A model generated the notes under the pieces. It saw only the letters and a list, made by a program, of their open reading frames with translations, was not told the DNA's origin and ran no database searches. 41,640 bases of DNA from Nitrosospira sp. Nsp14. GTDB taxonomy: Bacteria; Pseudomonadota; Gammaproteobacteria; Burkholderiales; Nitrosomonadaceae. Numbering within the stretch: the stretch's first letter is position 1; the number at the start of each line of letters is the position of its first letter. Positions 13,081 to 37,663 of the stretch are shown here, piece after piece. A program made the translations under genes and the position numbers. Location: positions 1 through 41,640 of the forward strand of contig NZ_FOPV01000023.1 in NCBI RefSeq assembly GCF_900113575.1. The letters are read 5' to 3'.

Positions 13081-13293
13081 ATGACGAATTTTGTTTACTA
13101 TCTACGCAATATGGACGGTTGTATCGAACGCCTGAGTAACGTGATCGCCATCGGTCCCACCGGTCTGCTCGGCGGTTATAAACACGAAGAGCAGATCACC
13201 GGTTTTCCCGAACCAACCGTGTTCTGGGCCTCGAACGAGGGCTCCACTGTGGGCGTGGCGCCGCTTGGCTCTTATCCTCCAGGCGCAGGTTAG
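13081..13293 (+). CDS. WPES-family small protein, copy 3
   Basis: This is a compact 70-residue member: NFVYYLRNMDGCIERLSNVI, YKHEEQITGFPEPTVFWAS, GSTVGVAPLGSYPPGAG. CAGGAGT precedes the ATG. Its last third and the DNA after it recur at about 15650-15803, beyond the ADP-ribosylglycohydrolase gene, where only the tail TTNGGAAIGVASLSSYPPGA survives. This gene is therefore the intact left partner of a duplicated gene junction. Function unknown. Confidence 0.82.
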   Translation: MTNFVYYLRNMDGCIERLSNVIAIGPTGLLGGYKHEEQITGFPEPTVFWASNEGSTVGVAPLGSYPPGAG

Positions 13294-13299
13294 GGGGAA

Positions 13300-13880
13300 G
13301 CGAAGCCAGGCTATCGCCCAACTCGTAGGCGTGCCACTCTTCATGCCGCTGGCGAAAACAGCTGGTAATTGATGGCAGTGACGAGCAACCCGCCAGTGTC
13401 AGCCGCAGTTAATGGCAGGAGAATAGATTACGGGAATAGAAAGTTGAACGAACACTGATGCCGGCCCGTTGCCCGCGTGGTCGATCGAGAAATTCCGACT
13501 CTTATTCGCCTTAAGATAGTAGGGCATTGATCCGACTCTGGGTAATGCACTCGATCTTCATAAACGCCAGTACACCAGCGTCCCGACGAGTACCAAGTTC
13601 ATCAGACAGCGTTGTCCGGGCTAGGCAACGGCCGATCACACCCGGCAGAGGTAGGACCCGGAGTTGTATTTGCTTTCTCGGGAGCCGAGGAGGCGAAATT
13701 TCCCTGTCCGGTAGTCAGCCTCCCATTGATACCTCGGGACCCTTTACTTTCCGCCTATTTTGCGTTGAACCAGAGCAAACCCGGCTTCAGCGTTTTTCCT
13801 CGAGCTTCCACTTCCGCTACCCACTTCCGGCTCCTTGCAGGCATTCGAATACTCCTCAGCCACCCGCGGATGATCCAACT
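13300..13880 (-). pseudogene. Decayed copy of the ATP-grasp gene 3' part
   Basis: This stretch aligns by eye with 15740-16510, the 3' part of the ATP-grasp gene, with many substitutions and several deletions. The clearest block is 13729-13875 against about 16380-16505: the nucleotide pairs ATTCGAATACTCCTCAGCC / ATTCGAACACTCCCAGGCC and CACCCGCGGA in both. In translation EARGKTL here matches EALGKTL there. Blocks at about 13520-13600 and 13640-13720 also align. No open frame spans it. It is the inner truncated copy of a duplicated junction. Confidence 0.6.
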
Positions 13881-14091
13881 TTCAAAATAGGGCCCCGGGG
13901 AGGATCGATAATGGCTATTGATGGGTGTTAATGGTGGTATTAGACCCATACTGAGGGCGCCGTGCCAATGTGATGCGAAAACCACGCTCCTCTCGCACTC
14001 GATTGCGGTGAAGTCCAGCTAATGATGGGCACGGGTGCTTCTTCTCCCTAAAGGCCCACCTGGTTTTGCAGCATGAATGAGGAGGATAGCC

Positions 14092-14166
14092 ATGCGGAAA
14101 TGCGCAGCGGAACACTTCCTGGCAAGCTCAAACGGGAACGAATACGCCGCCGGTCTTATCGAATAG
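14092..14166 (+). CDS. Possible 24-residue leader or remnant ORF
   Basis: A strong GAGGAGG ribosome site precedes ATG 14092, which opens a 24-codon frame beginning MRKCAAEHF and ending AAGLIE. A second GGAGG motif and a very short frame follow at once. This could be the start of a decayed gene or a leader for the ADP-ribosylglycohydrolase gene. Support is only the ribosome site. Confidence 0.25.
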   Translation: MRKCAAEHFLASSNGNEYAAGLIE

Positions 14167-14528
14167 GAGGTGAAGGGGGATGGATATCTTCGATCAAGTC
14201 GCGTGATTCAATGTGTGATCGCGAAGCGCCGATAGCTGGAACTTCGTTCGCAACAGGATTTGGAATTGATTCAGCCCACGGGCGACGTGGGCAAAATCCT
14301 AAATCGGGATGCGGATTGGGCCGTGCATACTATGCTGCAATGATCGTCTGCGGCATTAAGGGATAGGGTGCGGGCGATGTACCAAGCGAGAATGTGCCAG
14401 CAAGGGCGTCCTTCCGGTTTCCTTTAGTCCAGGATGCCCCAAAAACCGAAGAGCCACTACTAAGAATACTTCGAGCCTGAAAAAGATTTATCCAGATAAT
14501 CGAGATTAACCAAGAGGAGGATCAGAAC

Positions 14529-15623
14529 ATGTCCGACCCCGCGATACAGGACCGCGCTGCGGGGGCCATCATGGGCGCCTTTATCGGCGATGCCTTAGGC
14601 CTTGGCCCCCACTGGTACTATGACCTGGCCGCTCTCCGCCGCGACTACGGCGACTGGATCACGACCTATGCCGATCCCAAGCCTGGCCGCTACCATAGCG
14701 GTCTCAAGGCGGGTCAACTCTCCCAGAATGGGGTCATTCTCCGGCTCATGCTGCGCTCGCTCATCGAGCGCGGCAGTTATGATGAGGCTGATTTCTGCCG
14801 GCGCATGGATGAGGAAATCTTCCCGTCGCTCAATGGCATGCCCGTGAACGGACCAGGTGGATACACCCAGCAATCGATTCGCGACGCCTGGCGCAAGCGT
14901 GTCCAGCAGAACCTGCCCTGGGGCCAAACGGGGGGGCAGGCAGATACCACCGAGGCGATAGCGCGCACCCTCGCCCTCGCGGTCCGCTACGCCTTCCAGC
15001 CGCAGGAACTGGCAGCCGCCATCTCCAGCAATACACGGCTTACCCAGATCGACGATACCGTGGTTACCCTGACTGTCGCGTACGGGGCGGTGCTGGGTCT
15101 TCTGGTGCAGGGACACAAACTCAACAGGAGCCTTTCCGGCAAGCTCTTGCGATTGGCAAAGGCGGGAAAGCTGCCTTTCCATACAATGGCGCATACCGAC
15201 CTGCAGCCGCCGCAGGAGGACCACCCGCGTGAAGGCGGACATTTCGTCTCCCCGGACGCCCTGCTCACGCCCTCGTATGTCGCCGCAGCCGCGGTGGACC
15301 CGGATGTACGGATAGAGCCCGCATGGAAAGTTTCCATCGTCTACGGGATGACCTGCGCCATTTATCATCAGCTTCCCGCAGCCTATCATCTGACGGCCCG
15401 CTTTCCGAACGATTTTGAATCGGCTGTGCTCCAAGCCGTAAATGGCGGCGGGGAAAACCAGGCGCGCGCAATGTTGACCGGTGCGCTCGTCGGCGCTCAA
15501 ACCGGGCTATCGGGAATACCCCCGCGCTTCCTCGACGGCCTGGACGACGGCGAAACGCTCCAGGAGTATGCGATGAACCTGGCCTTGAAAGTGGACGCTT
15601 CAACAACCGGCGGGGAGAGCTGA
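14529..15623 (+). CDS. ADP-ribosylglycohydrolase family protein, atypical metal-site motifs
   Basis: The 364-residue protein starts behind GAGGAGG. The fold is that of the ADP-ribosylglycohydrolase/DraG/J1-crystallin family: RAAGAIMGAFIGDALGLGPHW at the N-terminus, all-helical body, and GGGENQARAMLTGALVGAQTGLSGIPPRF near the end. In classical hydrolases that remove ADP-ribose from proteins, a first T-D-D-T and a late G-G-D-T-D-T motif bind magnesium. Here these positions read SQNG (65-68) and GGEN (307-310), so catalysis may be altered or lost. Acidic residues in QADTTEA and QIDDTVV remain. The gene is the only one between two copies of a duplicated junction, which suggests acquisition. Confidence 0.85.
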   Translation: MSDPAIQDRAAGAIMGAFIGDALGLGPHWYYDLAALRRDYGDWITTYADPKPGRYHSGLKAGQLSQNGVILRLMLRSLIERGSYDEADFCRRMDEEIFPSLNGMPVNGPGGYTQQSIRDAWRKRVQQNLPWGQTGGQADTTEAIARTLALAVRYAFQPQELAAAISSNTRLTQIDDTVVTLTVAYGAVLGLLVQGHKLNRSLSGKLLRLAKAGKLPFHTMAHTDLQPPQEDHPREGGHFVSPDALLTPSYVAAAAVDPDVRIEPAWKVSIVYGMTCAIYHQLPAAYHLTARFPNDFESAVLQAVNGGGENQARAMLTGALVGAQTGLSGIPPRFLDGLDDGETLQEYAMNLALKVDASTTGGES

Positions 15624-15649
15624 AAACCGGAAAACCCGCGAACCGGACG

Positions 15650-15803
15650 AACCCCAGAAAACGGACCACCAACGGAGGCGCCGCAATCGGCGTGGCGTCT
15701 CTTAGCTCTTATCCTCCAGGCGCACTGTGGAGGGAAGCGTTCTCATGCCGTCGCCCAGCTCGTTGGCATGCCCTTCTCCATGCCGCCTGCGGAAGCGACT
15801 GGG
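15650..15803 (+). pseudogene. Tail remnant of a WPES-family gene
   Basis: The frame reads TTNGGAAIGVASLSSYPPGA, which lines up with ASNEGSTVGVAPLGSYPPGA at the end of WPES copy 3. The nucleotide match continues past the stop to about 15803. There is no start or N-terminal part. It overlaps the antisense C-terminal codons of the ATP-grasp gene. Confidence 0.65.
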
Positions 15804-16964
15804 GAAGTGATGGCGATCGCACTTGAAAAACTCGCGCAGCTTCTTTGGCAGCAAAAACCGGTATACGGTACGCATGAGCAAAACGATCCGCGCCAAGATT
15901 CGGTATTGAACGATCGCATACAGGAAATTTCCAGGAAGATATCTCCATACCTGATAGCGATTCAACACCAGTTCGGTCAACGACAACCGGAGATAGTGGG
16001 ATATGAGAAGCGGGTTCGAATACTGGGAGTTGAACGTGTACGAATGCTTCACGCTATTACGTGTGGCGAAATGCCGGGAAATGATTACCGCCCAGTCTTC
16101 GCCCAGGTATCGGGAGTGATCGATCCATAGATTGGGCCTCATATCGGCCTCGAAATAGTAGCGCTTGCCGTCTTGCACGGAATGTATGCAACCAATGCTC
16201 GCGAAACCGTGTGCCCCCAGCGCCTTGCCGAGCAAACGCAGCTCATCGAATACCTGTTTTTCCAGGGAGGCAAGCTGGCGATACAACCGGACCGAAGTGG
16301 GTCCGAATCTATATTTTGATTTTTCCGGAACCGAATAGGCAAAATGCACCAATTCCCCGTTGCGGTAGAAAGCCTCCAGGGCTACCTCGGCGCCTGCCAT
16401 TTTCCGCTGCACCAGAACCGGATACCGCATCAGCGTTTTTCCCAAAGCTTCCACGTCAGCCCCGCCCAAGCATTCGAACACTCCCAGGCCACCCGCGGAC
16501 GAGTCGAGCTTCACCAGGACAGGATAGCCTATCGTACGCGCCGAGGTGTTCAGTTCCTCTTCATCGCGGGCGATACGGTAATCCGGCGTACTGATTCCGT
16601 TTTCATTCAACGCAAGCGACAAGCCGATTTTCGAAAAAATATGGCCGAAGTTTTTCCCCGACAGGACCGGCAGCAGGCGCAATTTCTGTTCATCGGACAA
16701 GTCCGAGTTTAATATCATCCCAAGCGTGGCGTCGTCCCCGACAACAACCAGCGTATATTTTTTTTTTATTTTTTCCGCCGCTGTTTCAACCAGCAGATCG
16801 CGTTTCTTCGCCAGTACATAATCCCGCATTGCGCCACTTTTCCTGAACGCGGTACTGTTGGATATCACATCTACCGTAAATCCGGCACGGACCAGCAACC
16901 CGAACGTCACCTCCATCACCTCAGGCCAATAGCCGCCTATCAGTAAAGCCTCGAGCTTGTCCAT
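15702..16964 (-). CDS. ATP-grasp domain protein, unknown ligase
   Basis: The start ATG 16962-16964 has a perfect AGGAGGT eight to nine bases upstream, giving 420 residues. An N-terminal Rossmann-like part (LEALLIGGYWPEVMEVTFGLLVRAG) is followed by an ATP-grasp fold: YPVLVKLDSSAGGLGV (147-162, Lys152 and glycine loop), VLVQRKMAGAEVALEAFY (183-200) and the metal/ATP motif FEADMRPN (271-278). Such enzymes join a carboxylate to an amine or thiol with ATP. The C-terminal 60 residues contain a hydrophobic stretch and a basic tail. The last codons are antisense to a WPES gene remnant. A run of ten A in the coding strand (KIKKKY) could allow slippage. The substrate is unknown. Confidence 0.85.
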   Translation of the reverse strand: MDKLEALLIGGYWPEVMEVTFGLLVRAGFTVDVISNSTAFRKSGAMRDYVLAKKRDLLVETAAEKIKKKYTLVVVGDDATLGMILNSDLSDEQKLRLLPVLSGKNFGHIFSKIGLSLALNENGISTPDYRIARDEEELNTSARTIGYPVLVKLDSSAGGLGVFECLGGADVEALGKTLMRYPVLVQRKMAGAEVALEAFYRNGELVHFAYSVPEKSKYRFGPTSVRLYRQLASLEKQVFDELRLLGKALGAHGFASIGCIHSVQDGKRYYFEADMRPNLWIDHSRYLGEDWAVIISRHFATRNSVKHSYTFNSQYSNPLLISHYLRLSLTELVLNRYQVWRYLPGNFLYAIVQYRILARIVLLMRTVYRFLLPKKLREFFKCDRHHFPSRFRRRHGEGHANELGDGMRTLPSTVRLEDKS

Positions 16965-17427
16965 TAAAGACTGACCTCCTGCGCATCGGCAAACAATCAA
17001 GGCGAGCAGTAGATCATCATCTGTGTGCAATTTGTAGCTGTAAGATGTTACAGGCTGATGCTCTGCCTGGCCCCGACCAATCTCGCGAAGCATTTAAACG
17101 CGGAATCAAGGCTGAACCGCGAGCTACATTCCCTACCTCATCACTGCCGGGAAAGTATTATGACCAGCACGATTACAGGCCCATGCCTGCCATAGGGGTA
17201 TTGCCTGCTGGGAGTGGTCGCCGGACCCTGTGGGCCGGAATCATCCCACGTCGTCATTCCTACCCACAGGAGGCGTGGGAGAACATACAGGGGGATAAAA
17301 ACAGCAATATTCGGAGACTCAGGCGATGATTATTTGAAGATACTGCTCGTCGGGGCGAGAAAAAATGGCCTTGTTAACTGGGAACCAGGGCCCTGGCACG
17401 GGTCCCCAGTCTGGTGTATGGTTCAGT
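16965..17427. other. Intergenic stretch, no gene seen
   Basis: It lies between the 5' end of the ATP-grasp gene and the 3' end of a PEP-CTERM gene. Short plus-strand frames have no ribosome site. The sequence GGGGGATAAAAACAG near 17290 is unremarkable. Confidence 0.35.
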
Positions 17428-18222
17428 CTAGTCCAGGTTCAGCGCCCGCTCAGCCAGCTTCAGCTCACGTTTATCCGAAAGTTCCGTTTCATATAGAGGC
17501 TGTGGGCAGGGCCACTTGATAGCCTCCTTTGCACGGATCGCTTCGAGCCGAGCTCGCTCGCTTTCACGGCGGCGAGCCATGATAAGGCCCCACACCCCGA
17601 AAACAACCAGCGCAATGGTGGTCGGTTCAGGCACGGCGTTAACCTCCGCTGGTGCCGCGGATGGATCAAACAATGCCTTGTTCGTTAATCCGTTGTTGCC
17701 GGTATTAAGGTACCCGCTCGCCGCCAGATCCGCATAAGAGTTAGTCTTCCATCCTTTTATCGCCCAGCTTCCCCCTTGTATGCTTAACTGGAAGGGATTC
17801 CCGTTATACAAAAAATTTTCTACCAGAAAAAAACCATTGAACACCCCATTGTTGAACTGGATCGCCGGTCCCCCGGAAACGCCTGCATCGCCGAATTGGA
17901 ATTCCAATGGCTTGCTGCCAAACATGAGGTCAAAAACCACGCCATTGGAGGCACCTCCGGCAGATGCCAGGGGAACGTTAACGAAACCTGTTCCGCTTCC
18001 CGGTACGAGATTGGCGTCGAATAATACATGTCCACTCACGCTGCCCGCCGCGCAACCGCTGCATGTGTTGGTTCGCTGCAACCCCAGGCTGCTCCCGAGG
18101 CTCATGACGTTTGAGATACCGCCCGAAAAATCGGCGGTGGTGTAAATAGGAACCGCGTGGGCAGGCGATATCGAAGCGAAAATGATGGCACAAGCACCCG
18201 CCAGGCTGGCTAATCTGTTCAT
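17428..18222 (-). CDS. PEP-CTERM protein with a charged C-terminal extension
   Basis: The 264-residue protein begins behind GGAGG with a signal peptide ending SPAHAVP. The body (30-190) is Gly/Asn/Ser-rich and resembles other exosortase substrates; two cysteines form a CSGC motif. The sorting signal VPEPTTIALVVFGVWGLIMARRRE ends near residue 220. PEP-CTERM proteins normally stop just after the Arg cluster. Here another 43 or so charged residues follow (ESERARLEAIRAKEAIKW and on). This may be an old read-through of a lost stop. Function unknown; probably matrix or surface-associated. Confidence 0.85.
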   Translation of the reverse strand: MNRLASLAGACAIIFASISPAHAVPIYTTADFSGGISNVMSLGSSLGLQRTNTCSGCAAGSVSGHVLFDANLVPGSGTGFVNVPLASAGGASNGVVFDLMFGSKPLEFQFGDAGVSGGPAIQFNNGVFNGFFLVENFLYNGNPFQLSIQGGSWAIKGWKTNSYADLAASGYLNTGNNGLTNKALFDPSAAPAEVNAVPEPTTIALVVFGVWGLIMARRRESERARLEAIRAKEAIKWPCPQPLYETELSDKRELKLAERALNLD

Positions 18223-18334
18223 TTTTCCTCCATGAATCCGTCAAAGTGAACCGTCAGGAAGGCATCATACTTATGCCAGCAGCGGTGGCTATTGGACGCA
18301 GGTACACCTTGTACCAGGGTACAAGTACTCGCGC

Positions 18335-18400
18335 TCACTTGGCTGAAAACAGGCGGATATTCGAAGCTGAAGGCGAATGGGAACGCGCCGCGTCCACGTA
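18335..18400 (+). pseudogene. Possible remnant of a formylglycine-generating-enzyme/sulfatase-modifying domain
   Basis: One frame reads RRIFEAEGEWERAA just before a stop, which resembles the R-L-P-T-E-A-E-W-E-x-A-A signature of that domain. Nothing else of the domain is visible, so this may be chance. Confidence 0.25.
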
Positions 18401-18733
18401 AGACTCGGGCAAAGCCCGAGTGGTCAGGTTTTTAAGCCCGGTAGCGCGATTTCAAGCGGAGCGGCGGAGGCACTGACATGGCCGCGTCAGAACGAAGTAG
18501 CGAGGGATAGCGAGGATGTCGGATATCTTTACACTCACAGGAATTATTTTTTGGACGAAATTTTTTTTATTTTAGTTTCCGCAACTTAGGCATGCTTACG
18601 GAGCGAGCACGGTTCTTGCTTATAGATAATTGAGTCCCGAACGGCTGACGAGTACCCACAAAATCGAAAACGGGACCCGGGAAAATAGCGGCTGGCAAGT
18701 CTGGCCGATAAAAATAAAACCACCCACTTGAAC

Positions 18734-18760
18734 AACCCGCTTCGGCGGGTTTTCTTTTAT
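18734..18760 (+). terminator. Rho-independent terminator without an obvious gene
   Basis: AACCCGC and GCGGGTT pair around TTCG, followed by TTTCTTTT. The structure is convincing on the plus strand, but no upstream coding region was recognised. Confidence 0.75.
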
Positions 18761-19168
18761 ATGGCCAGCGTTCGGATAGGATAGGACGGGTTGAGGAATT
18801 CGTAGAAGTAGCGGATTACGCGCCAGGGGGAACAAACCACGAGCTAGCCACCGGCGCGCAGCAATAGGATCAGCAGCATCTCAACTCCGACGAAAGGTTT
18901 CAAGGTTTCGCCTTTTCACGCGTTGATTGCGTGAGGCGTCCGAGAGCTTTGATCCTATCAATTGGCAGCCCAATCGACTTGGCGACCTGGCGACCTGGAC
19001 TTCAGTCCAATAGGCAGGGTTGATAAATTCCGTAAGATAGATGCTGCGGAACGTCAACGCAACCCTGCAAGCGTACGCTCCGCCCCGGCCACGCGCGTCA
19101 ACATTACGTCGCGTTGCGTTGCATGGCCGGGCCCTGACACCCCGCGGTTGTCGTGGAGGGCAGTTGTA

Positions 19169-19918
19169 TTACGCCGCGACCGCTCTCACCACCTTCACTA
19201 CACTAGCCGCTGGCTTGGTCTGCAACAACCGCTGGTATATTTGTTTAACCACGGCGTACCCATCACCAACCCGCTCCTCCAGGGCTGCCCGGTCTAGTAT
19301 GGTGATGTGGCCGCGGCGATACTCGATGGCGCCGGCCGCCTGCAGCGCTTGCGCCGCCTGGGTCACGCTTTCGCGGCGCACCCCAAGCATCGCGGCTACC
19401 AGTTCATGTGTCATGGGCAGGGACGGCGATGCGAGGCGGTCCTGGCTCATCAGCAAGAACCGGCATAGTTGCTGTTCCACGGTGTGCCTATGATCCACGG
19501 CGCATTGTTCAGTCTGAAACAGCAGCGCCTGGCTGAAGCGCAATAATAATTGCTGCAGGACGCCCCCGGCCTCGAATTCCTTTTTCAGCACGCCGGCCTT
19601 TATGCGATAACTGTAGCCGGGGCTTTGCACGGTGACCGTGGCCGGGGTGCTTTCCGAACCTAATAGCAGCGCGGTCCCGGTGACCCCTTCGTTCCCGACC
19701 ATCGAGACCTGCCTGGAAATTCCGGATTCCAGTTCATACATGCGGGCCATAATACAGGTCGTGGGAAAATAGAGCTGACTTATCCGAGTGTTGGGTTCAT
19801 ATATCACCTGACCCAACGACAGATCCACCAATTCCAAATAAGGCAGTAAGCGGGCATACTCTTCCGCAGGCAGGGCCGCTAAAAGCTGGTTTTGCTTCGG
19901 GCTGTGCAATATCGACAT
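19169..19918 (-). CDS. Crp/Fnr-family transcription regulator
   Basis: The ATG 19916-19918 follows AAGGAGGAG and gives 249 residues; an upstream in-frame ATG at 19966 lacks a ribosome site. Residues 15-130 form a cNMP-binding-like beta roll (LELVDLSLGQVIYEPNTRISQLYFP, SMVGNEGVTGTALLLG). A dimerisation helix (LLLRFSQALLFQTEQ) and a winged helix-turn-helix follow, with PMTHELVAAMLGVRRESVTQAAQALQ split across the recognition helix. No Fnr-type N-terminal cysteine cluster is present, so it is not an iron-sulfur sensor. The ligand and targets are unknown. Confidence 0.9.
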   Translation of the reverse strand: MSILHSPKQNQLLAALPAEEYARLLPYLELVDLSLGQVIYEPNTRISQLYFPTTCIMARMYELESGISRQVSMVGNEGVTGTALLLGSESTPATVTVQSPGYSYRIKAGVLKKEFEAGGVLQQLLLRFSQALLFQTEQCAVDHRHTVEQQLCRFLLMSQDRLASPSLPMTHELVAAMLGVRRESVTQAAQALQAAGAIEYRRGHITILDRAALEERVGDGYAVVKQIYQRLLQTKPAASVVKVVRAVAA

Positions 19919-20365
19919 AGCTCCTCCTTGTGGGACTTGATTAGCGATCAGAAAAGTTTCATTCACAGACTTATGGATTTAAGTCTGTCTAAGTCGTTAT
20001 ACAGCAAAATTCGTGCCAGAACTTTTTTCTTTAAAGAACATATAGCTGTGCTTAGTGACCAAGCTCATCGGTCACCAATAGCCGACGTAATCTCCGCCCC
20101 TTGACGCAACTCTTTGAAATATACCCTTTATTTATGTCGCTACTTCGCGACAGAAGAGCCCCAACTAGTACAAGTGTCGCGCCATGTGCCCCATATTATG
20201 AAATAGCAGGGCATGACAAGCAGGCTGTCCCCGGCTTACGGAGCCCGTAGCAACCCCAGGTTAAAGGAATGGCAAGACATACCGTTATATTAAAGTTAGC
20301 GTGGCCGGTACGGAAGCGAATTCCAGCATATTTTCCTTAAACCCAGACTTGGAGAAGGAGAACGT
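19919..20365. other. Intergenic stretch between divergent genes
   Basis: It holds the promoters of the Crp/Fnr gene and the Cas2/SinR-like gene. No gene was recognised. Confidence 0.35.
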
Positions 20366-20632
20366 ATGTCACTGTATTGTATAGGATACGAGCTCGTAGA
20401 CCGGAGTGGCATGTATGCCACACTTGTAGGGGAAATTGAAACCTACGAAACATGGTGGCATTGCCTGGACTCAACCTGGATCATTGCTTCCCCTAAAACG
20501 GCGGATCAGGTAAAGGATCATCTTCAACAATACATCGGCCTAAATGACAAGCTCGTAGTGGTTGAAATTGCCGGCGATGCCGCCTGGGTTGGTTTTGACA
20601 AGGAATGCTCGGATTGGCCAACCAACATCTGA
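20366..20632 (+). CDS. Small Cas2/SinR-like protein, second member
   Basis: The protein is 88 residues, behind a GGAGAAGGAG ribosome site. It has the same layout as the protein at 511-780: an opening strand SLYCIGYELVD, a helix, LDSTWIIASPKTADQVKDHLQQYI, then the strand LVVVEIAGDAAWVGF and a C-terminal C-x-D-W motif (CSDWP here, CANWL there). That pattern resembles Cas2-fold proteins of the SinR type. No cas genes are adjacent. WPES copy 4 follows on the same strand. Function unknown. Confidence 0.72.
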   Translation: MSLYCIGYELVDRSGMYATLVGEIETYETWWHCLDSTWIIASPKTADQVKDHLQQYIGLNDKLVVVEIAGDAAWVGFDKECSDWPTNI

Positions 20633-21048
20633 GCAACATCTGAGAAGGCGTGTGCTAGCGACCGCCGAGTTTCCCCAAGCGATCCATCGCTTCCCCGTTA
20701 ATAACATTCCGGTCGTTCCGCGCAGCCATAACCCCACTATTGTCCGGAAACCTTTGTCTGGAAGGGGTTTTACGACCAGCAGAATCGCAGCCACGCTGTT
20801 AGTCCGTTATGATATGCCGCCACGGCAGCCCAATAGGAATATGCGGTATTACACGATGCTCCGGGTGATCCTGCTCTGCTGTCGTCCGCGCTCCTCGGCG
20901 ATGCTTTTCGATGTAACCGCTCAGCGGCGGTCCAACCAACATCGTTCCTCGTGATAACGAGGGATACCGCACGGAACAATTTCCGGGTATCTATTTAGAA
21001 TCGCCCTCTAATAAGATCAAAAAAAGGAGGTACTTACAACCGGACGCG
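20633..21048. other. Intergenic stretch, no gene seen
   Basis: Minus-strand and plus-strand frames here lack ribosome sites and have shadow-like composition. An A-rich AAAAAAAGGAGG motif at 21019-21030 serves the next gene. Confidence 0.35.
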
Positions 21049-21258
21049 GTGGAAATGCCTGTATACATCCTTTACATACGCAGAACCGACGGTTCGATTT
21101 CGCGTTACGAAAACTTCCGTTTCAAGGGGTTCGAAGGGGACGCGATGTATATCTATGAAGAGACTCTTGTGGGCTGGCCCGAGTCGAAGGTGTTTTGGCA
21201 GCACAAGGACGGCTATAGTGCAGGTCTAGCCCCAACCGAAACGAATCTGTTCTCTTAA
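21049..21258 (+). CDS. WPES-family small protein, copy 4
   Basis: The protein is 69 residues from GTG 21049, or 67 from ATG 21055. The strong AAGGAGG at 21024-21030 is about 18 bases from the GTG, further than usual, so the start is uncertain. The core is YILYIRRTDGSISRYENFRF, YIYEETLVGWPESKVFWQ and GYSAGLAPTE. It is the most divergent of the four copies in the window. No signal peptide. Function unknown. Confidence 0.78.
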   Translation: MEMPVYILYIRRTDGSISRYENFRFKGFEGDAMYIYEETLVGWPESKVFWQHKDGYSAGLAPTETNLFS

Positions 21259-26099: not shown

Positions 26100-26117
26100 A
26101 AGCAGGACCGTGATCCC

Positions 26118-29456: not shown

Positions 29457-29500
29457 CCCAAAGACCCTGTTAACCGCTAGTCCGGTGCAAGTCTTTGGGG
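29457..29500. terminator. Inverted repeat downstream of the PEP-CTERM gene
   Basis: CCCAAAGAC and GTCTTTGGG pair across 24 bases. It lies about 55 bases after the stop and may terminate transcription, though the T run is short. Confidence 0.4.
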
Positions 29501-29525
29501 CGCAGCACCAGATCGGCGCCGGGCT

Positions 29526-29789
29526 TACCTCAACCCGTATCTTTTTTTCTGGCAAGCCTCTCAGGAAGTCGAGGAGCTGCGTGCTGTCGATGGCGACGAG
29601 CCGCTAAGAAAAGCTCCGCAACAAGCGAGAGCTCATCTGCGACGTATCAAGATCGACACTTACCTTGGAATGGGGTTTTCCAACCTGATTGCTTTTTTTG
29701 TCAGCACCCGTCTTCGGATACTCGGCTGGATCGCAACGGGTGTAATGGCGCTTGCGGTACTGGGGATGGGGATAACTTCGCTACTGTAA
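29526..29789 (+). pseudogene. NRAMP-family metal transporter fragment with internal deletion
   Basis: The frame reads YLNPYLFFWQASQEVEELRA, then LRRIKIDTYLGMGFSNLIAFF, the conserved middle of an NRAMP Mn/Fe transporter. It then jumps directly to VSTRLRILGWIATGVMALAVL and GMGITSLL-stop, which is the C-terminal end. The membrane segments normally between them are missing. The last part repeats at 32076-32165. No start is present, so it is a relic. Confidence 0.78.
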
Positions 29790-30208
29790 AAGTATCCATT
29801 GCCGCTGGCCCACCCTGATCCGCTTGTTGGGAGAGTAGGCGCAGCGTGCCGCTCGTTAAGTTCCGCGAAGGTCTGGAAATACGGACTTTTGTCCGGCGAA
29901 CGAGGAAGGACAGAGGTGTCGGCAGCACTGGAAAAATCGGCGCCGGCGACGCGCCCAAACAACTATGCTTCGTTCGAGTTCATGCGCGGGTTAGGCTTTA
30001 AGTAGCTCAATAACGTAGATTCCAGACGCCAACAAACCCGGCGTGGTCCGCACAGCGTGGAGTTTTCCCCACTTTTCGAGCAGTGCTCGGGTTTCGCCCG
30101 ACGCAAGGTCGCGTCCGGGAATCAGAAGCTGATGGTTCGTTGGCATGAGTACAAGAAATGTGAATGGCACGGCCAAGCCAATAAGCACCGCCCCAATTAA
30201 CCACATGA
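29700..30208. repeat. Left copy of a ~510-bp direct repeat (pair with 32076-32585)
   Basis: It runs from GTCAGCACC through the NRAMP tail, an intervening segment and the C-terminal half of a DUF1772 gene. The partner lies 2.4 kb downstream in the same orientation. By eye the two are nearly identical, with scattered substitutions and small indels. The porin gene is between them. Confidence 0.9.
29991..30206 (-). pseudogene. C-terminal half of a DUF1772 membrane protein (truncated duplicate)
   Basis: Its 71 residues match the last 71 of the intact protein at 32368-32808 in all but five positions (66 of 71 identical). The frame starts in the middle of the third membrane helix (LIGAVLIGLAVPFTFLVLM) exactly where the direct repeat ends. 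There is no ribosome site of its own, so it is a truncated duplicate. Confidence 0.85.
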
Positions 30209-30367
30209 AGCTTCCTCGTGCATATCCTCGATCAGAAGATTACAACTATTTTCGGCCACCCCATCATCCAGCGGTTTGCGATCTCGATCCCCGGTCTGCC
30301 CCGACTCTAATATCCCGCATTTAGTCCGGATATGTCCAGGTTGTATTTGGAACAATACCGCGACAAA

Positions 30368-31696
30368 CTAGAACTGCACGTATGCGTTGATGCCGACCAT
30401 GACTTGGTTATTGTTACCATTAAAGGGGCGACCCTCGCCCGAAAACCAGTCATAGCGCACTTCCGGACGAAAGGTGATATTCGGGTGCGGAGTGTAGTTC
30501 ACTCCACCCGTCACAGAGAAGAAGTCGCCCGCAAACGCGCCACGGTTGGGATTTCCTCTGAATTCAGAGCCGCTTACTCGTGTACCGTCTGCATCGCGAA
30601 ACCACTCAAATCGAAAGCCAGCTTTTACTGTTTTGTGTAGCGTATAGTTGAGGTATTGATCCACCCCGTACCATGAAGCAGCAGTTCCATTCACGTTCCC
30701 GTTTGCCTGAGACGAAAAGTGCTGGTGAAGAGTGAACTCAAGCTTCTCCAGAGGACGTAGGGTAACGATTGCGCTATATCTTGTCCGGTTACCAAACACT
30801 CCTGGAATTATCGTGGGCTCTTGTCCCGTAATAACTGCCAGCGAGCCCGTGAAGAATTGATCGGTCGTAGCGTATTTCACTCCGCCAAGAAACGCCGGAT
30901 TATCATTCTGCCGGTCCAATGAGTCCCAGCCGTTCACTACACCCGCTCGAACAGAGAGCTGCGGGCTGATATTCGCCGTAGCAAGACCACCCCAATGCGT
31001 GAATGGACCAGCAAACTGGTACGAATAAGACTTCGAATAAAAGAAATTGCCCGCAGCGGGTACACCCTCGTAACCGATTATCGTGTAGAAGTGTCCCAAC
31101 TTAACTGAAACGGTCTTGTTGCCGATTTCAGCATACATTTGCGGAAGCGCGAAACCATGTAATTGTTGGTTCCATTTTGGCGCGCCGCTCTCGGTACGTT
31201 CAAGTCCATTGCTTTGTGCAAGAAAGAAATCGTTACCGAATAGGACATCAACCCTGCCACCCAGATCGATGCTTTTTGTATCTTTCAAAGTTTTTTCAGC
31301 AATGAAATAGAGCTGGTTCAGCTGAGGCTGATTACGATCGACCTCGTTATATGGGCCATTAAAATGGGAACTTGGGGTTGAGCCATTATAAACGTAGCCT
31401 CCGCTGACCCACCCTCTTAGAGAAATCGGCCAGCCTTGAGGGAAGACATGTTTGACGTCCTCCTCGCCTTTAGGCACGTGTTCAGGGAAGAGATGTTTGC
31501 CTCCCGAACCTTCAGGGAAGAGACGTTTGATTCCCATACCCAGGGCAGCCGCCGCTGGAGCCATGTCTGAGGGCGACGCGGAAGACTTGGGAGCCATGGG
31601 AGGCGGTACCGCGCCATTATCCGCCCACACGTAATTTACCCCGCAGATCAGCCAGGACATTGCGCACGCGCCCAATCCGAATTTACACTTTTTCAT
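30368..31696 (-). CDS. Outer-membrane beta-barrel porin (OmpL-like, putative beta-barrel porin-2 type)
   Basis: The ATG 31694-31696 has AGGGGG upstream and yields 442 residues with a signal peptide ending NYVWADN. A Pro/Ala linker is followed by three phased motifs (IKRLFPEG, GKHLFPEH, VKHVFPQG). A barrel then begins (ISLRGWVSGGYVYNGS) and runs to the end with alternating strands: SIDLGGRVDVLFGNDFF, LPQMYAEIGNKTVSVKLGHFY, LEFTLHQHFSSQA, TVKAGFRFEWFRD, ITFRPEVRYDWFS. It ends in Phe, as outer-membrane proteins do. The substrate is unknown. It is the only gene between the two copies of a direct repeat. Confidence 0.85.
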   Translation of the reverse strand: MKKCKFGLGACAMSWLICGVNYVWADNGAVPPPMAPKSSASPSDMAPAAAALGMGIKRLFPEGSGGKHLFPEHVPKGEEDVKHVFPQGWPISLRGWVSGGYVYNGSTPSSHFNGPYNEVDRNQPQLNQLYFIAEKTLKDTKSIDLGGRVDVLFGNDFFLAQSNGLERTESGAPKWNQQLHGFALPQMYAEIGNKTVSVKLGHFYTIIGYEGVPAAGNFFYSKSYSYQFAGPFTHWGGLATANISPQLSVRAGVVNGWDSLDRQNDNPAFLGGVKYATTDQFFTGSLAVITGQEPTIIPGVFGNRTRYSAIVTLRPLEKLEFTLHQHFSSQANGNVNGTAASWYGVDQYLNYTLHKTVKAGFRFEWFRDADGTRVSGSEFRGNPNRGAFAGDFFSVTGGVNYTPHPNITFRPEVRYDWFSGEGRPFNGNNNQVMVGINAYVQF

Positions 31697-31967
31697 GTAT
31701 CCCCCTATTTGAAAATCGATCCGACTAGTGCTGCTCGTGACACTCTCGTTACCGAGAAGCGGCGCTGACGTTTTAAGTATGCAGAGGCAAACGAAGAGCA
31801 AAGTGCGAGCAAGGAGGCGAAGTTATTGCCAGCTAAACGCTCGGACCACACCCTTCGAGTAATTGCACCGCTGGGGGGCACCACTGGGCGTACATGGCCA
31901 GTTCAGGAACATTGTAGGATAGGAGTAATGTGTGACTGTTCGGTAACGTACAGATAAAAAATCAGAC

Positions 31968-32165
31968 TCTTGCTTGCGCATACCGATGCGATTCGCTCAA
32001 GACGTAATTGCCGTTCCCATTATGGCAGTCATGATGCTTCCGGCTGCAAAACCTAACGTAACGGGACAGTTTGTTGTCAGCACCTGTCTTCGGATACTCG
32101 ACTGGATCGCAACCGGTGTAATGGCGCTTGCGATACTGGGGATGGGGATAACTTCACTACTGTAA
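31968..32165 (+). pseudogene. NRAMP transporter C-terminal fragment, second copy
   Basis: The frame IPMRFAQDVIAVPIMAVMM, LPAAKPNVTGQFVVSTCLRI and LDWIATGVMALAIL is the C-terminal part of an NRAMP transporter (canonical V-I-A-V-P-I-M-A-V-M-M). It keeps a segment deleted from the copy at 29526. The N-terminal four fifths are absent. Confidence 0.78.
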
Positions 32166-32585
32166 AAGTATCATTAAAGCCGCTGGCCCATTCTGATCTG
32201 CTTGTTGTGAGAGTAGGCGCAGCGTGCCGCTCGTTAAGTTCTGCGAAGGTCTGGAAATGCGGGCTTTCGTCCGGCGAACGAGGAAGGACAGAGGTGTCGG
32301 CAGCACTGGAAAAATCGGCGCCGGCGACGCGCCCAAACAACTATGCTTCGTTCGAGTTCATGCGCGGTTAGGCTTTAAGCAGCTCAATAACGTAGATTCC
32401 AGATGCCAACAAACCCAGCACGGTCCGCACAGCGTGGAGTTTTCCCCACTTTTCGAGCAGTGCTCGGGTTTCGCCCGACGCAAGGTCGCGTCCGGGAATC
32501 AGAAGCTGATGGTTCGTCGGCATGATTACAAGAAATGTGAATGGCACGACCAAGCCAATAAGCACTGCCCCAATAACCCACATAA
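32076..32585. repeat. Right copy of the ~510-bp direct repeat
   Basis: Partner of 29700-30208. On this side the repeat leads into the complete DUF1772 gene, while on the left side it follows the NRAMP remnant. Confidence 0.9.
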
Positions 32586-32808
32586 TGCCGCCATCGAGCA
32601 ACCAGGCGGACACCCCGGCACTGAAACTCAGGATAGCCAGTGGAGCTTGCATCATTGTTGCCCGTTTGTAGCTGGGCGCCCAAACCGTAACCGCAGTCTT
32701 CGTATCGCAGTCCATCCGTGCCGGGTGCTCAACAAGATTGATGTAGAGCGCGGCACCGGCAAAAACGGTACAGCAAAAAACAGCGACGAATTGCGCGGCG
32801 TGCAACAT
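32368..32808 (-). CDS. DUF1772 (anthrone oxygenase-like) membrane protein
   Basis: The 146-residue protein has four hydrophobic segments: FVAVFCCTVFAGAALYINLVEHPAR, APLAILSFSAGVSAWLLDG, IMWVIGAVLIGLVVPFTFLVI and LGLLASGIYVIELL. The E-H-P-A-R motif after helix 1 and the M-P-T-N motif after helix 3 are typical of DUF1772 proteins. It is an inner-membrane protein of unknown role. Its 3' half is duplicated at 29991. Confidence 0.85.
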   Translation of the reverse strand: MLHAAQFVAVFCCTVFAGAALYINLVEHPARMDCDTKTAVTVWAPSYKRATMMQAPLAILSFSAGVSAWLLDGGIMWVIGAVLIGLVVPFTFLVIMPTNHQLLIPGRDLASGETRALLEKWGKLHAVRTVLGLLASGIYVIELLKA

Positions 32809-33162
32809 CTCAACACCTGTTCATAATTGGTGGCATAACAAACCTGGCATCACCCCCGTGGCGGCCCTTACCCTACATAAATAACTAATGCGAAGGGGCA
32901 AATGAACGTAATTCTCTGATTGCGGAATTCTTGGCAAACGCGGGCGCATTTCACAACCTTTTAAGGAAGACCTGCTAGAACACTAGTACAGATGCGAGAT
33001 AGTCACATCTGGCAAGAAGGAAAATGTCGTGCTTCAGTTAGCTCGCGTACATTATTCGATTATGAAATTTGCGAATATCAGAGACGGGGCATGCCTGCTG
33101 ACTACTCATCTGCGCTTCCGGGTTAGTGGACGGCCTCCTAGCGGTTTATATAGGGGATTCCA
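32809..33162. other. Intergenic stretch, no gene seen
   Basis: No frame with a ribosome site was found. The end carries GGGGA in front of the next small gene. Confidence 0.35.
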
Positions 33163-33354
33163 ATGAAAAAATCAAAAGGTATTGATGCGTTGGGATACAA
33201 GGCAAAAGAATTCGATAAATGGCTGGAAAAAAGAACCAACAAAATTCTTAAGCGCGCGCTCAAAATGCAACGGCTGGCTAAAGAGGAATTACCTGCCTGG
33301 ATCAACAGTTCCGAACGTCTTGCGCTGGACGAGAGTTTCCAAACGCGCCATTAA
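33163..33354 (+). CDS. Small basic protein of the GY-EFDKWLE family, copy 3
   Basis: The protein is 63 residues: MKKSKGIDALGYKAKEF, DKWLEKRTNKILKRALK and a variable tail. It is very close to the copy at 21736 across the first 33 residues. GGGGA precedes the ATG. It lies about 190 bases upstream of the WYL-like gene on the same strand. Function unknown. Confidence 0.75.
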   Translation: MKKSKGIDALGYKAKEFDKWLEKRTNKILKRALKMQRLAKEELPAWINSSERLALDESFQTRH

Positions 33355-33543
33355 ACTCGACATAGCCGGGCTCATTTTCATCCGGCTGCCCGTCAAGCTC
33401 GTTGCCATGCGCTTCCTTAAATGAAAAAGGCCCCAAAAGGCGACCCCGGCTATGACTTAACACGAATTCTCTACTGCGTCAACTGTTATTTATTTTCGCA
33501 TTGCTGGGTTAATATCTATTCACAATATTCGGAGGGAATGGAT

Positions 33544-33906
33544 ATGTTTGAAACAATAAAACAAAAAAATCGAACAGGCCCAGTTCCGCGTAGAACAGAC
33601 TTGGAAACCACGCTATGCGAGGCCATCCGTAGCAAAACAAGGATACGCCTCCACTACAAAAACGAGGGCCACTTTCGGACGTTTGAACCGTACATTATCT
33701 ACGAATCAGCGGGAAGAATTCTCGTGGCTGGAGTGCAAATCAAGGATGACTCTAGAACTCTATCCACGTCAGGGTGGCGGGAGTTTGAGGTCGATTGGGT
33801 TAACACGATCCTTCGCATCCGAGAAACCTTTAGACCCGACCCCGAATTCAGTCCCTTCAAGGCTAAATTCGGCACGAATGTGATCTGCGTCGTTGACCGC
33901 ATTTAG
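33544..33906 (+). CDS. WYL-domain-like protein
   Basis: The best start is ATG 33544, six bases behind GGAGGGA, giving 120 residues; the open frame extends upstream to 33421. Residues 18-85 fit a WYL-type ligand-binding fold: LETTLCEAIRSKTRIRLHYKN, RTFEPYIIYESAGRILVAG and VQIKDDSRTL. The C-terminal part contains W-R-E-F-E-V-D and an R-x-R-E-T-F-R-P-D-P motif. WYL domains bind nucleic acid or nucleotides and often regulate defence or stress genes, usually with an HTH that is missing here. Its 3' end is duplicated at 36950. Confidence 0.7.
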   Translation: MFETIKQKNRTGPVPRRTDLETTLCEAIRSKTRIRLHYKNEGHFRTFEPYIIYESAGRILVAGVQIKDDSRTLSTSGWREFEVDWVNTILRIRETFRPDPEFSPFKAKFGTNVICVVDRI

Positions 33907-34458
33907 ATATTCCAGCAGTTTCTCAGCCACAAGCTCGCCCGATGGAGAAGTCGGGTCACCTTGGTGGGATGCAAGTGAACCGAGCGCCTCCCGCCGAGTA
34001 CCCGCCGATGAATGCGTCCGAAGCCACAGTGATCATACTATCCTCCAACGTTGCTTACGCAAAGGGTTCCAGTTTGGACAAGACGGTGGGGAGATATTCT
34101 GCAACCGTCGGATGAATATGCATTGCGCGCTGCACTACCGTATACGCCGCCTTTGCATACATGACGTCCAGCAAAACGTGTTATTTCATCGCCTCCGATG
34201 CCCAGAATCGCAGCACCCATAATGTATTTTGTTTCCGCATCAACAGAGATTTTGATGAAACCTTGTGTCTCACCTTTCTCAACGGCGCGGCTCACTTTGC
34301 TCATCGGAAGCTTCGTGGCGAGTACAGGGCGCCCAGATTTCCGTACTTTGGCGTCCGTCATGCCGCATCGCCCTAGCGGTGGATCTGGAAATAACGCGTA
34401 CGCCTGAATCCGATCTGACACGCGGCGATGAGCTGAGTCGAGGAGATTATCGGCGACG
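33748..34458. repeat. Left copy of a ~710-bp direct repeat (pair with 36950-37663)
   Basis: It begins GACTCTAGAAC inside the WYL-like gene and ends CGGCGACG inside a truncated oxidoreductase copy. The partner is 3.2 kb downstream in the same orientation. The patatin gene lies between them. Confidence 0.92.
34055..34458 (-). pseudogene. C-terminal fragment of the flavin disulfide oxidoreductase (truncated duplicate)
   Basis: The frame VADNLLDSAHRRVSDRIQAY to ILGIGGDE matches the intact enzyme at 37258-38637 with eight differences over 91 residues. A 2-base deletion just after GGDE then destroys the dimerisation tail, which in the intact gene reads HVLLDVMY and HIHPTVAEY. The N-terminal FAD and NAD domains are absent. 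Confidence 0.88.
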
Positions 34459-34670
34459 GTGCCGCGCACGAAACTAATCGGATGGGATTGAGCAAACGGA
34501 GGAAATAGGACTGGAGATGAGGATAAATCTGAAAGCAGTTTCTCATCGCAATCTATCGGCATTGCAGCTTTCGAGCCTCGTAACGATGTGCCGTAATTTC
34601 GAAGAGGGGCCGATAATCTATCTTTCGCCAATAAAAACCCTGTTATGAAGCTTGTAGGCGGCCCGTGCGC

Positions 34671-36560
34671 TCAAAGCGTTTGTGCAGAGGCACTGGGGAC
34701 AGGAATTCCCGACAGTGGCGGCGATGTGGCAACGTCAGTAGGAATGGACTTGGCGACATCGGCAAACAGCGGATAATCCAGTTGCTGCAGTTGTTCCTTG
34801 ATCTTCGGAAGTTCGGCGAGCGCCGCCCGTTCCCCAATCCTGGCTATTTCCACAGCTTCCGTGAATTGGGTCAGATCGCATTGGGTCACATCCGGTTCAA
34901 TGATGGCGTCCGCTGGCTGCACGCCGAAAGAATTGACTCCCATGCTCTGAGCCAGAAGGCTTCGCATAATGGTCTGCACCGTCGAAACTCGACCCATCGC
35001 CGATTTTGTGGGAAACTCCTGCTCAATCTTGGCCGTTACACTAACCGCTATGACATAGTTGCAGCCACGATCTACAAGTACGTCGGCTGGAATATTCTTG
35101 ACAACCCCCCCATCAACCAGCGCCTGGCCGCCGCGAAAGATCGGCAGCGACAGCCCCGGTAAATTGATGCTCTCCAGGATCGCAATTACTGCGTCGCCAT
35201 GGTCGCGAATAACTGCTTCACCGCTGACCAGGTCAAGCGTTACGGCGTAGCAGGGTATGGGCAGCTGTTCCAGCCTGCAATCCGACAAATACTTTCTCAG
35301 CATTACATCAATTTTATGGGTACGATACAGGTACACCAGATACCAGTTACGGCCGTCTGGAAGATAGCGAAAGAGAAGGGGCGGCTTCAGGTCCACGGCG
35401 ACTATCTCGGCCCACTGTTTCGCTGCCAACCCGGAAGCATAAGGAACGCCGGTCATCGCCCCCGCGCTCGTCCCGGCAATCATGTCGACGACAATCCCAT
35501 TCTGCTCCAGAACATGCAGAACTCCCAGATGGGCCATTCCGCGCGCGGCGCCCCCACCCAAAGCCAGCCCGATCTTGATGCCGCGCAGGTAATGAATGAC
35601 CCTTTCCAGGCTGGTTTTACCCAGTGGCGATTGTGTTTCCGAGAAGGTGACCTTGAAATCGCGTGATACCAACTCGTTCAGCTCGGGAGCAAAAGGCGAG
35701 ATCCCGCGTCCGTCCGCAAGCAGCCAGACTAGATTGATTTTTTCACGGCAACTGGAAGCATGCGCGCAATTAGCCTTTAGGCGCTCCACAGCCGACTTCT
35801 CATCTCCTGCATGGAGACACCACATCACTGAATCACTAAGTTCGATCAGTTGAGAAGCACGCTCGGGGTCGAGGGCTGCGTCAACATCGATAAATAAGCG
35901 CCCCCTATCTTGCCGACCGCCGATTTGTTCGCGGATTTCCGATATGAACAGTTCACAATTCCCTTTGGAGAGTACCCTGTAACCTGCATTCTCCCGACGT
36001 TCCTCCTCGTTTTGATCACTCAGCACCCGCGGCTGTTCCCCAAGTTCGGCTAGTCGGCGTGTGAGGCGCTGAGTCAAGGGGCGTGTTGCGGGCGAGCTGT
36101 GGAAGATAGCCACGACCCATGGTTGTGGCCTCGATTTCTCCTCAATAAAATTTTTGCGAAAATTTTTAACGGCAGCCTGCAGGACATTGATTCTGAACTT
36201 TGGGTACTTGGGCGTGAGGCTCAGTGCCTTCTTGTACTCCAATTTCAGCAGTGTGCAATCCGTTACAGCAAAGAGACCTTCAGGAATGGAAACCTCGCCA
36301 GCCATAATAGCCCCGATTTGATCATCCCGCGAAAATACCCACAACACTCTCTCATTCCCTTGAAGATCGCGGCGTGTTCCTTTCAAGGTCCCCTGAATAA
36401 CGAAATAGATGTCTGTCAGCGGTGTATTTGGTTGATGCAAACATTCGTTCGGCTTGCACTGCACCAGTTCCATATGCTCGGCAATCTCCACAAGTGCATC
36501 GTCTTCCAGCCCTTGGAAACAACCATGCCTCCTCATCAAATCCAATACTTCTGATCGCAT
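34671..36560 (-). CDS. cNMP-binding domain plus patatin-like phospholipase (NTE-type)
   Basis: The 629-residue protein starts with a cyclic-nucleotide-binding beta roll (about 5-135; ECLHQPNTPLTDIYFVIQGTL, VLWVFSRDDQIGAIMAGE), a linker (145-325) resembling the region between these domains in bacterial NTE-like esterases, and a patatin domain (327-535). The catalytic dyad is clear: oxyanion GGGAARG (335-341), Ser365 in GTSAG and Asp483 in DGG. The C-terminus (540-629) is helical. The family hydrolyses phospholipids or lysophospholipids, probably at the inner membrane, under control of the N-terminal domain. Whether a nucleotide binds is unknown. It is the only gene between the two copies of a direct repeat. 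Confidence 0.92.
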   Translation of the reverse strand: MRSEVLDLMRRHGCFQGLEDDALVEIAEHMELVQCKPNECLHQPNTPLTDIYFVIQGTLKGTRRDLQGNERVLWVFSRDDQIGAIMAGEVSIPEGLFAVTDCTLLKLEYKKALSLTPKYPKFRINVLQAAVKNFRKNFIEEKSRPQPWVVAIFHSSPATRPLTQRLTRRLAELGEQPRVLSDQNEEERRENAGYRVLSKGNCELFISEIREQIGGRQDRGRLFIDVDAALDPERASQLIELSDSVMWCLHAGDEKSAVERLKANCAHASSCREKINLVWLLADGRGISPFAPELNELVSRDFKVTFSETQSPLGKTSLERVIHYLRGIKIGLALGGGAARGMAHLGVLHVLEQNGIVVDMIAGTSAGAMTGVPYASGLAAKQWAEIVAVDLKPPLLFRYLPDGRNWYLVYLYRTHKIDVMLRKYLSDCRLEQLPIPCYAVTLDLVSGEAVIRDHGDAVIAILESINLPGLSLPIFRGGQALVDGGVVKNIPADVLVDRGCNYVIAVSVTAKIEQEFPTKSAMGRVSTVQTIMRSLLAQSMGVNSFGVQPADAIIEPDVTQCDLTQFTEAVEIARIGERAALAELPKIKEQLQQLDYPLFADVAKSIPTDVATSPPLSGIPVPSASAQTL

Positions 36561-36949
36561 TTCAGCTCTCCTAGGGTAATTTGATAAAGACTACCGGCGC
36601 ACCTGCTATCCTTCGGAACCACCACATCTTGAACACGCCCATACAAGAATATAAGCATCCGGCAGGTTACGAGCATGCAAGCAAAAACAAGCCTCAATAT
36701 TACATGGTAAGAAATGCCATTGAAAATTCCCTGATCTGGCGCGCCATCATTCAACCCTTACACTTCAATTATGGACGTAAAAAAAATTTAGTTTGGTCAC
36801 TGTCTAGCGAAATGGGCTAATGACACAGCTGTAAGGTCTACCCCTACTATCAGTGATTTTATTTTATTCTTTCGACCGAAAGCAAAGGACTTGAAGTGCC
36901 AGCTCGTGCCAGGTTCGCTAAAAAATACAAAAGGCGGCAAGCGGCGTAC
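36561..36949. other. Promoter-side stretch of the patatin gene; no other gene seen
   Basis: Frames here have no supporting features. The region ends where the direct repeat begins. Confidence 0.35.
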
Positions 36950-37107
36950 GACTCTAGAACGCTATCCACGTCAGGGTGGCGAGAGTTTGACGTTGATCGG
37001 GTGAACACGATCCTTCGCATCCGAGAAACCTTTAGATCCGACCCCGAATTCAGTCCCTTCAGGCCAAATTCGGCACGAATGTGATCTGCGTCGTTGACCG
37101 CATTTAG
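36950..37107 (+). pseudogene. 3' fragment of the WYL-like gene (truncated duplicate)
   Basis: The frame DSRTLSTSGWREFDVDRVNT, ILRIRETFRSDPEFSPF corresponds to the end of the protein at 33544, then loses frame by a one-base deletion near AGGCCAAATTCGG. No start is present. Confidence 0.85.
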
Positions 37108-37663
37108 ATATTCCAGCAATCGTCTCAACCACAAGCTCGCCGATGGCTAGTGGGGATCCGCTTGGTGGGACGCAAGGGAATCGAGCACGTCTCGCCGATC
37201 ACCCGCCGATGAACACGCCCGCAGCCACAGAGTGGATCAGCCGTCCTCCGACGTTGCTTACGGAAAGGGTTCCAGTTTGGAAAAGACGGTGGGGAGATAT
37301 TCCGCAACTGTCGGATGAATATGCATGGCGCGCTGTACTACCGTATATGGCGCCCTTGCATACATCACGTCCAGCAAGACGTGAACTACTTCATCGCCTC
37401 CGATGCCAAGAATCGCAGCACCCATAATGTGTTTTGTTTCCGCATCAACAGAGATTTTGATGAAACCTTGTGTCTCACCTTTCTCAACGGCGCGGTTCAC
37501 TGCGCTCATCGGAAGTTTCGTAACGAGTGCAGCGCGGCCAGATTTCCGTACTTCGGCGTCCGTCATACCGCATCGCCCTAGCGGCGGATCTGTAAACAAT
37601 GCGTACGCCTGGATCCGATCTGACACGCGGCGATGAGCTGAGTCGAGGAGATTATCGGCGACG
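36950..37663. repeat. Right copy of the ~710-bp direct repeat
   Basis: Partner of 33748-34458. The first 160 bases are the 3' end of the WYL-like gene without its 5' part. The rest contains the 3' end of the intact oxidoreductase. Confidence 0.92.

Follow-up and report, generated by a model that had tools for sequence, protein, structure and literature searches.

Organization of the Three Loci

We analysed a stretch of 41,640 nucleotides of Nitrosospira sp. Nsp14 (the window), which forms contig C33 in a draft assembly of 54 contigs. Three loci in the window were found to contain a gene placed between two direct copies of the 3' ends of a convergent gene pair. Self-comparison of the window gave three direct repeat pairs, each lying across the 3' ends of such a pair (Table 1), and no inverted repeat pairs were reported in two self-comparisons with lengths of at least 60 and at least 90 bases. 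The left and right outer genes are called X and Y, and the gene between the copies is called the cargo. Locus 1 contained X1, a decayed part of Y1, an ADP-ribosylglycohydrolase gene, the end of X1 and the whole Y1. Locus 2 contained a remnant of X2, the tail of Y2, a porin gene, a longer tail of X2 and the whole Y2, followed by locus 3 with the whole X3, the tail of Y3, a gene for a cyclic nucleotide monophosphate (cNMP)-binding and patatin protein, the tail of X3 and the whole Y3.

This shared layout, in which the junction block occurs twice in direct orientation with cargo between the copies, had been described in an earlier note on the same DNA and was borne out by self-comparison and Pfam, as were the three cargo identities by Pfam. 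The note had also placed a single unrelated gene between the copies; one complete gene was found in each insert, but each insert also holds an unrelated scrap. The outer left gene was intact on the left and truncated in the right copy at loci 1 and 3, as the note had stated, whereas X2 at locus 2 is a remnant. The locus 1 copies were heavily diverged (74 and 63%), and the pairs that the note called nearly identical were 90-93% alike.

Table 1. Repeats, inserted sequences and outer genes of the three loci (positions in the window).
Feature	Position	Strand or orientation	Evidence
Locus 1 repeat	13226-13376 with 15663-15814	direct	74%, 152 columns
Locus 1 decayed extension	13477-13881 with 16116-16511	direct	63%, 427 columns
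Locus 2 repeat	29694-30222 with 32070-32600	direct	93%, 533 columns
Locus 3 repeat	33748-34458 with 36950-37663	direct	90%, 718 columns
Cargo 1, ADP-ribosylglycohydrolase (ADP_ribosyl_GH)	14529..15623	+	PF03747, 4.3e-56
Cargo 2, outer-membrane porin (BBP2)	30368..31801	-	PF07642, 1.1e-70
Cargo 3, cNMP-binding and patatin protein	34671..36560	-	PF01734, PF00027
Scrap U, insert 1	14065..14261		67-72%, resembles G003 and G008 sequences
Scrap, insert 2, middle piece of a conserved gene	30211..30346	-	72-82% to copies in 14 relatives, 81% to own copy
Scrap V, insert 3, middle piece of an RgpF-like gene	34499..34656	-	65-70% DNA; PF05045 on complete relative
X1, left outer gene, 70-amino-acid small-protein family member, intact	13081..13293	+	74% amino acid identity to G013 over 69 amino acids
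Locus 1 left copy, X1 end and decayed Y1 3' part	13226..13881		Repeat alignment
Locus 1 right copy	15663..16511		Repeat alignment
Y1, right outer gene, ATP-grasp-like, intact	15702..16964	-	Pfam match below cut-off; 75% to G013
X2 remnant, Nramp transporter, not intact	29526..29793	+	G013 comparison, Pfam
Locus 2 left copy, X2 tail and Y2 tail	29694..30222		93%
Locus 2 right copy, longer X2 tail and Y2 tail	31997..32600		Repeat with left copy begins at 32070
Y2, anthrone-oxygenase-like, intact	32368..32808	-	PF08592, 3.9e-15
X3, WYL-like, intact on left	33421..33906	+	PF13280, 2e-4, just below cut-off; surroundings 86-88% to G013
Locus 3 left copy, X3 tail and truncated Y3 tail	33748..34458		Repeat alignment
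Locus 3 right copy, truncated X3 tail and Y3 tail	36950..37663		Repeat alignment
Y3, flavin adenine dinucleotide-dependent disulphide oxidoreductase, intact	37258..38637	-	PF07992, 2.4e-59

Undisturbed Sites in the Sister Genomes

For comparison we used two sister genomes, G012 (Nitrosospira sp. Nsp2) and G013, and the window was found to be syntenic with G013 C1 from ~134 to 181 kb. At loci 1 and 3 both sisters contained one junction and the cargo was absent. The target that flanks the insert in direct copies here was, as the earlier note had expected of strains without the cargo, single in the insert-less relatives at these two loci, but not cleanly so at locus 2, where G013 holds another insert. 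There, an open X2 is followed by 5.2 kb of other DNA and a second X2 tail (79.5%, 176 columns) beside Y2; a second Y2 tail was not detected at this place. The pair X2/Y2 therefore holds different DNA in each lineage, with the X2 end duplicated both times. The 5.2 kb insert of G013 (L066:2768-7955) includes a distant relative (47% at the amino acid level) of the gene behind the insert 2 scrap.

In G013, X2 is an open reading frame of 426 amino acids encoding an Nramp transporter. In the window its first part is gone and ~170 bp are left, followed by a deletion of ~400 bp and then the tail. At locus 3, the right X3 copy is one base short and the left Y3 copy two bases short relative to G013. No Pfam family was found in X1.

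Age of the Copies

At nine informative sites in the Y3 part of locus 3 the left copy agreed with the right copy, at three with G022 and at one with G013. The two copies grouped together against the relatives in the locus 3 tree (14 rows, with row L220 left out), with a support of 90 in the Shimodaira-Hasegawa-like approximate likelihood ratio test (SH-aLRT) and a bootstrap of 88. The copies are sisters, and the duplication of locus 3 therefore postdates the split from G012/G013. The Y2 parts of locus 2 were 95% alike between the copies and 90-91% to G013, with site patterns of 3, 1, and 0, respectively; at locus 1 the copies were 74% alike, compared with 59-62% to G013 (no outgroup). These identities are consistent with duplications at loci 1 and 2 that are also younger than the split.

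An ancestral cargo lost from G012/G013 by recombination between the copies was rejected at locus 3, where derived sites are common to the left and right copies against G013 and G022. The identities at loci 1 and 2 are only consistent with the same conclusion.

The right tail of Y3 diverges from G013 more than the remaining Y3. The excess is mainly non-synonymous, with 20 differences compared with 6 between G013 and G022 in the same codons; the synonymous differences are 19 compared with 13. For this reason, the idea that the right locus 3 copy had brought in a donor allele was not supported. The kept 3' part of the intact Y3 (37258-37663) contained these 20 non-synonymous and 19 synonymous differences in 136 codons, and the rest of Y3 (324 codons) contained 14 and 34, respectively. 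The tail of the functional Y3 copy has thus evolved fast.

Composition of the Inserts

The inserts look like mosaics, judged from their sequences, each with a complete gene and an unrelated scrap. The gene behind the insert 2 scrap is complete at C24:14307-14759, and the complete relative of the RgpF-like scrap V lies at C24:113918-114898. These two scraps open inserts 2 and 3, and the distance from the end of the scrap to the stop codon of the cargo was 21 bp at locus 2 and 14 bp at locus 3. In insert 1, the similarity of cargo 1 to other genomes spans ~14396 to ~15637. No restriction-modification Pfam domain was found in the three cargo genes.

The best match of the porin outside its own genome had 42% protein identity among 120 genomes of the family. 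The patatin protein had matches at E ≤ 1e-40 in three of the 23 genus genomes (its own, G012, and G013), comprising a second own copy at 75% and the homologues of G012 and G013 at 72-73%. In a plasmid search, the patatin protein gave no match and the porin one distant match (35.5%). A stretch of 154 bp in the patatin gene (35999-36152) had an 83-84% match at G013:C1:488120-488273 and G012:C1:574282-574435, closer than the complete homologue of these genomes (76%), and may be what is left of a lost relative. In G013, the patatin homologue is flanked by direct repeats of 72% (L081:3978-4244 and 7144-7411), and the second of these extends over the beginning of a gene for a phage integrase; when an empty site for this insert was sought, only the left neighbourhood was located in the own genome.

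Across 17 genomes, the own genome among them, the ADP-ribosylglycohydrolase gene was found in ~11 different surroundings (L035-L050), and similarity ends near the gene. For comparison, a core block of 9 kb had its first 7 kb together in 22 of 23 genomes and split over contigs in the incomplete G016. The gene was 83-89% alike to the own copy, compared with 74-83% for the first 3.8 kb of the core block. On these alignments, the gene seems to move often. The flanking duplication as a trait of this gene was rejected, since it was found at none of 24 other loci of the gene or its paralogue (best E-value 0.048) when flanks of up to 1.5 kb were compared (one short flank in L046 and L060).

Frequency of the Layout

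Long flanking duplications were carried by three of four inserts here that reach at least 800 bp and are absent from G013, and by one of six inserts of at least 725 bp in G013. The same flank test, applied to random places, gave a direct repeat at 31 of 600 in C24 and C32 and at 7 of 200 in the syntenic region of G013; the 30 listed of the 31 positives were all in C32, mostly in paralogue arrays. The layout was thus commoner than chance, as the earlier note had implied, in a comparison that is generous because both insert sets were chosen by eye from the window/G013 alignment and the edges of three inserts were taken from the repeats themselves.

No further case of the exact layout was seen in 400 kb of other own sequence (C24, C32, and C29; 12%), where the repeats belonged to gene families or were internal, apart from a few looser cases. 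Some looser cases were also present in 400 kb of G013; one is the patatin homologue beside the phage integrase gene, and a second led nowhere. Among the breaks between G012 and G013, one holds an insert of 52.8 kb with a repeat of 50 bp, and another an insert of 1.2 kb with a repeat of 5 bp. From these counts, the form is real and locally repeated, yet apparently not the usual way in which the genus gains DNA.

A direct repeat of 761 bp and 98.8% (G000:C32:129010-129770 and 132599-133359) has genes between its copies and lies near a stretch absent from G013; it may be a recent instance of the layout, or else a repeat within a gene family.

Features of the Region

The coding share, by our own gene caller, was 49% in the window and 52% in its G013 counterpart, compared with 78-82% in C24 and C32. 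The region is a decayed zone that tolerates insertions. Convergent neighbours accounted for 7 of the 26 adjacent pairs in the window, and the chance that all three loci are convergent is ~2%, or ~10% if only convergent and divergent pairs are counted (7/15). The idea of the earlier note that convergent ends are special safe sites gains only slight weight from these values: a duplication across any gene boundary leaves both genes whole, so that convergence is not required, and 7 of the 26 pairs would be convergent in any case.

A family of proteins of ~70-80 amino acids recurs in the decayed region (9047-9253, 12735-12944, 13081-13293, and 21055-21234), at nine places in the G013 region and at two in C24 (C24:13051-13599). 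Two members were scanned and had no Pfam match. Two adjacent copies of a repeat of ~140 bp, 70% alike, are present at 8408-8692, with a similar pair at the matching place in G013.

Comparison with Known Systems

A transposon or insertion sequence contains a transposase and makes a short target duplication, whereas an integrase-type genomic island contains an integrase gene and has a transfer RNA (tRNA) or attachment (att) site at its edge. The Pfam scan of 26 window proteins, a subset of the open reading frames, found no transposase or integrase domain, in line with the earlier note, and there was no tRNA in the window; short att sites were not searched for. The duplications are hundreds of bases long. 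A transposable or integrative element, now reduced to remnants without its enzyme, is therefore a most improbable source: the duplications are far longer than usual ones and there are three different cargoes, although the phage integrase gene adjoining the patatin homologue of G013 indicates that the patatin gene can travel on islands.

The earlier note knew of no named element of such form. However, an insertion with long target duplication was named from a comparison of two strains of Helicobacter pylori (Nobusato et al., 2000, as cited in PMC1643837 and PMC4978471). According to these citing papers, the form is likewise drawn from related strains and consists of a gene insertion between direct copies of a target that is single in the other strain, and it is proposed as a mechanism of gene mobility. 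The Nitrosospira loci match this form and are therefore not a new kind of element. They differ in their cargo, a frequent but not required link with restriction-modification genes being described for H. pylori there, and also in the scraps within their inserts and the Ku and LigD of their host. No title on such a layout in Nitrosospira was found among the matches listed in the open-licence literature.

Possible Routes of Insertion

Any mechanism has to duplicate the target and also let in unrelated DNA. End joining at staggered breaks, with capture of foreign fragments, is in our view the likeliest route, to which we give an even chance, because the genome encodes both Ku and LigD. The two genes are adjacent (C24:102466-106103), and LigD contains primase-polymerase, phosphoesterase, and ligase domains. 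By this route foreign DNA would have entered a convergent gene pair at a break with cuts in the two strands lying hundreds of bases from each other. The overhangs on both sides would have been filled in and then sealed to captured fragments through Ku/LigD end joining. A target of ~0.5 to 0.85 kb would in this way be copied to both sides, leaving one whole copy of each neighbour, and duplication and insertion would be one event. Deletion and selection may later have cut the insert back to the useful gene, the spare gene ends would decay, and at locus 2 the left neighbour X2 would also have decayed later. Such joining needs no homology and the fill-in accounts for the long duplication, and the capture of fragments would explain the scrap beside a complete gene in each insert. 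In mouse cells, tandem duplications are produced from staggered breaks by non-homologous end joining, in which the sequence between two offset nicks is copied; those duplications are small, and no whole-gene capture is described in the available part of the report (PMC5730883).

Several points weigh against end joining. The copies are old and their ends are not clean, and a junction mark specific to end joining is not readable in them. A single larger insert, since decayed, could have left the scraps behind. The duplication was absent at one of the four inserts here and at five of the six in G013, and none of 13 breaks (~365 kb) between G012 and G013 had a long duplication in one genome only, some of these breaks being long unaligned stretches in which small events are unscored. 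G012 and G013 count as one lineage, since they are ~99% alike at locus 3. To our knowledge H. pylori is without Ku, so that Ku is not a general requirement for the form.

The earlier note had favoured the single-crossover integration of a circle carrying the cargo and a copy of the convergent junction, which we regard as unlikely. It would yield exactly the observed layout, and the insertion with target duplication stands, but searches of the genus found no place where the cargo is joined to the junction block, and the plasmid search gave the one distant porin match named above and none for the patatin protein. The identity along the copies shows no clean switch between host and donor at a crossover, and the inserts look like mosaics. 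The junction block and the cargo would have to be joined beforehand, and the circle would also need a home-made origin or one in a very close relative, because the copies of locus 3 group together and not with an outside strain. A model of this kind has been published for Arabidopsis, in which single genes are found at new places, many with direct repeats matching the target in the sister species; this is a eukaryote, and the authors favour circles excised by recombination between repeats and then reinserted (PMC2869330).

Natural transformation with linear DNA, pairing by homology at one gene end and joined illegitimately at the other, on sister chromosomes, would also give an insertion with a duplication, and the genome contains a ComEC gene. 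We hold it to be quite unlikely, since the donor must carry part of the junction beside the cargo and none was found in the genus searches. Homology-facilitated illegitimate recombination and tandem duplications made by transformation are both documented (PMC5361080, PMC3784515). The former likewise adds foreign genes without a transposase, but as described in the source it works by displacement and is not marked there by duplication of the target on both sides (PMC5361080). The documented cases are displacements or duplications of 100-900 kb between repeats, unlike the form observed here (PMC5361080, PMC3784515).

An origin in two unlinked steps, in which the junction first underwent an ordinary tandem duplication and DNA was later inserted separately between the copies, is very unlikely. 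Both steps would be tolerable because the region is half non-coding, but the coincidence would be needed three times, and no convergent junction in the window was seen to be tandemly duplicated with nothing inserted.

Significance for Nitrosospira

With end joining at staggered breaks as the preferred route, it may be proposed, as a doubtful generalization, that slow-growing ammonia oxidisers gain whole genes through the joining of stray fragments by Ku/LigD, without a transposase and concentrated in decayed, gene-poor regions. An equally tentative part of this proposal is that the gains would appear as gene-sized mosaic inserts framed by target duplications of 0.5-0.85 kb, with the neighbours spared. 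The loci show gene gain before and after the event, with no mobile element in sight, the undisturbed site being kept in relatives at two of the three loci. Should end joining be the cause, soil nitrifiers would obtain new genes directly through DNA repair, and a testable mechanism for the pattern long known from Helicobacter would be at hand in a host equipped with the enzymes.

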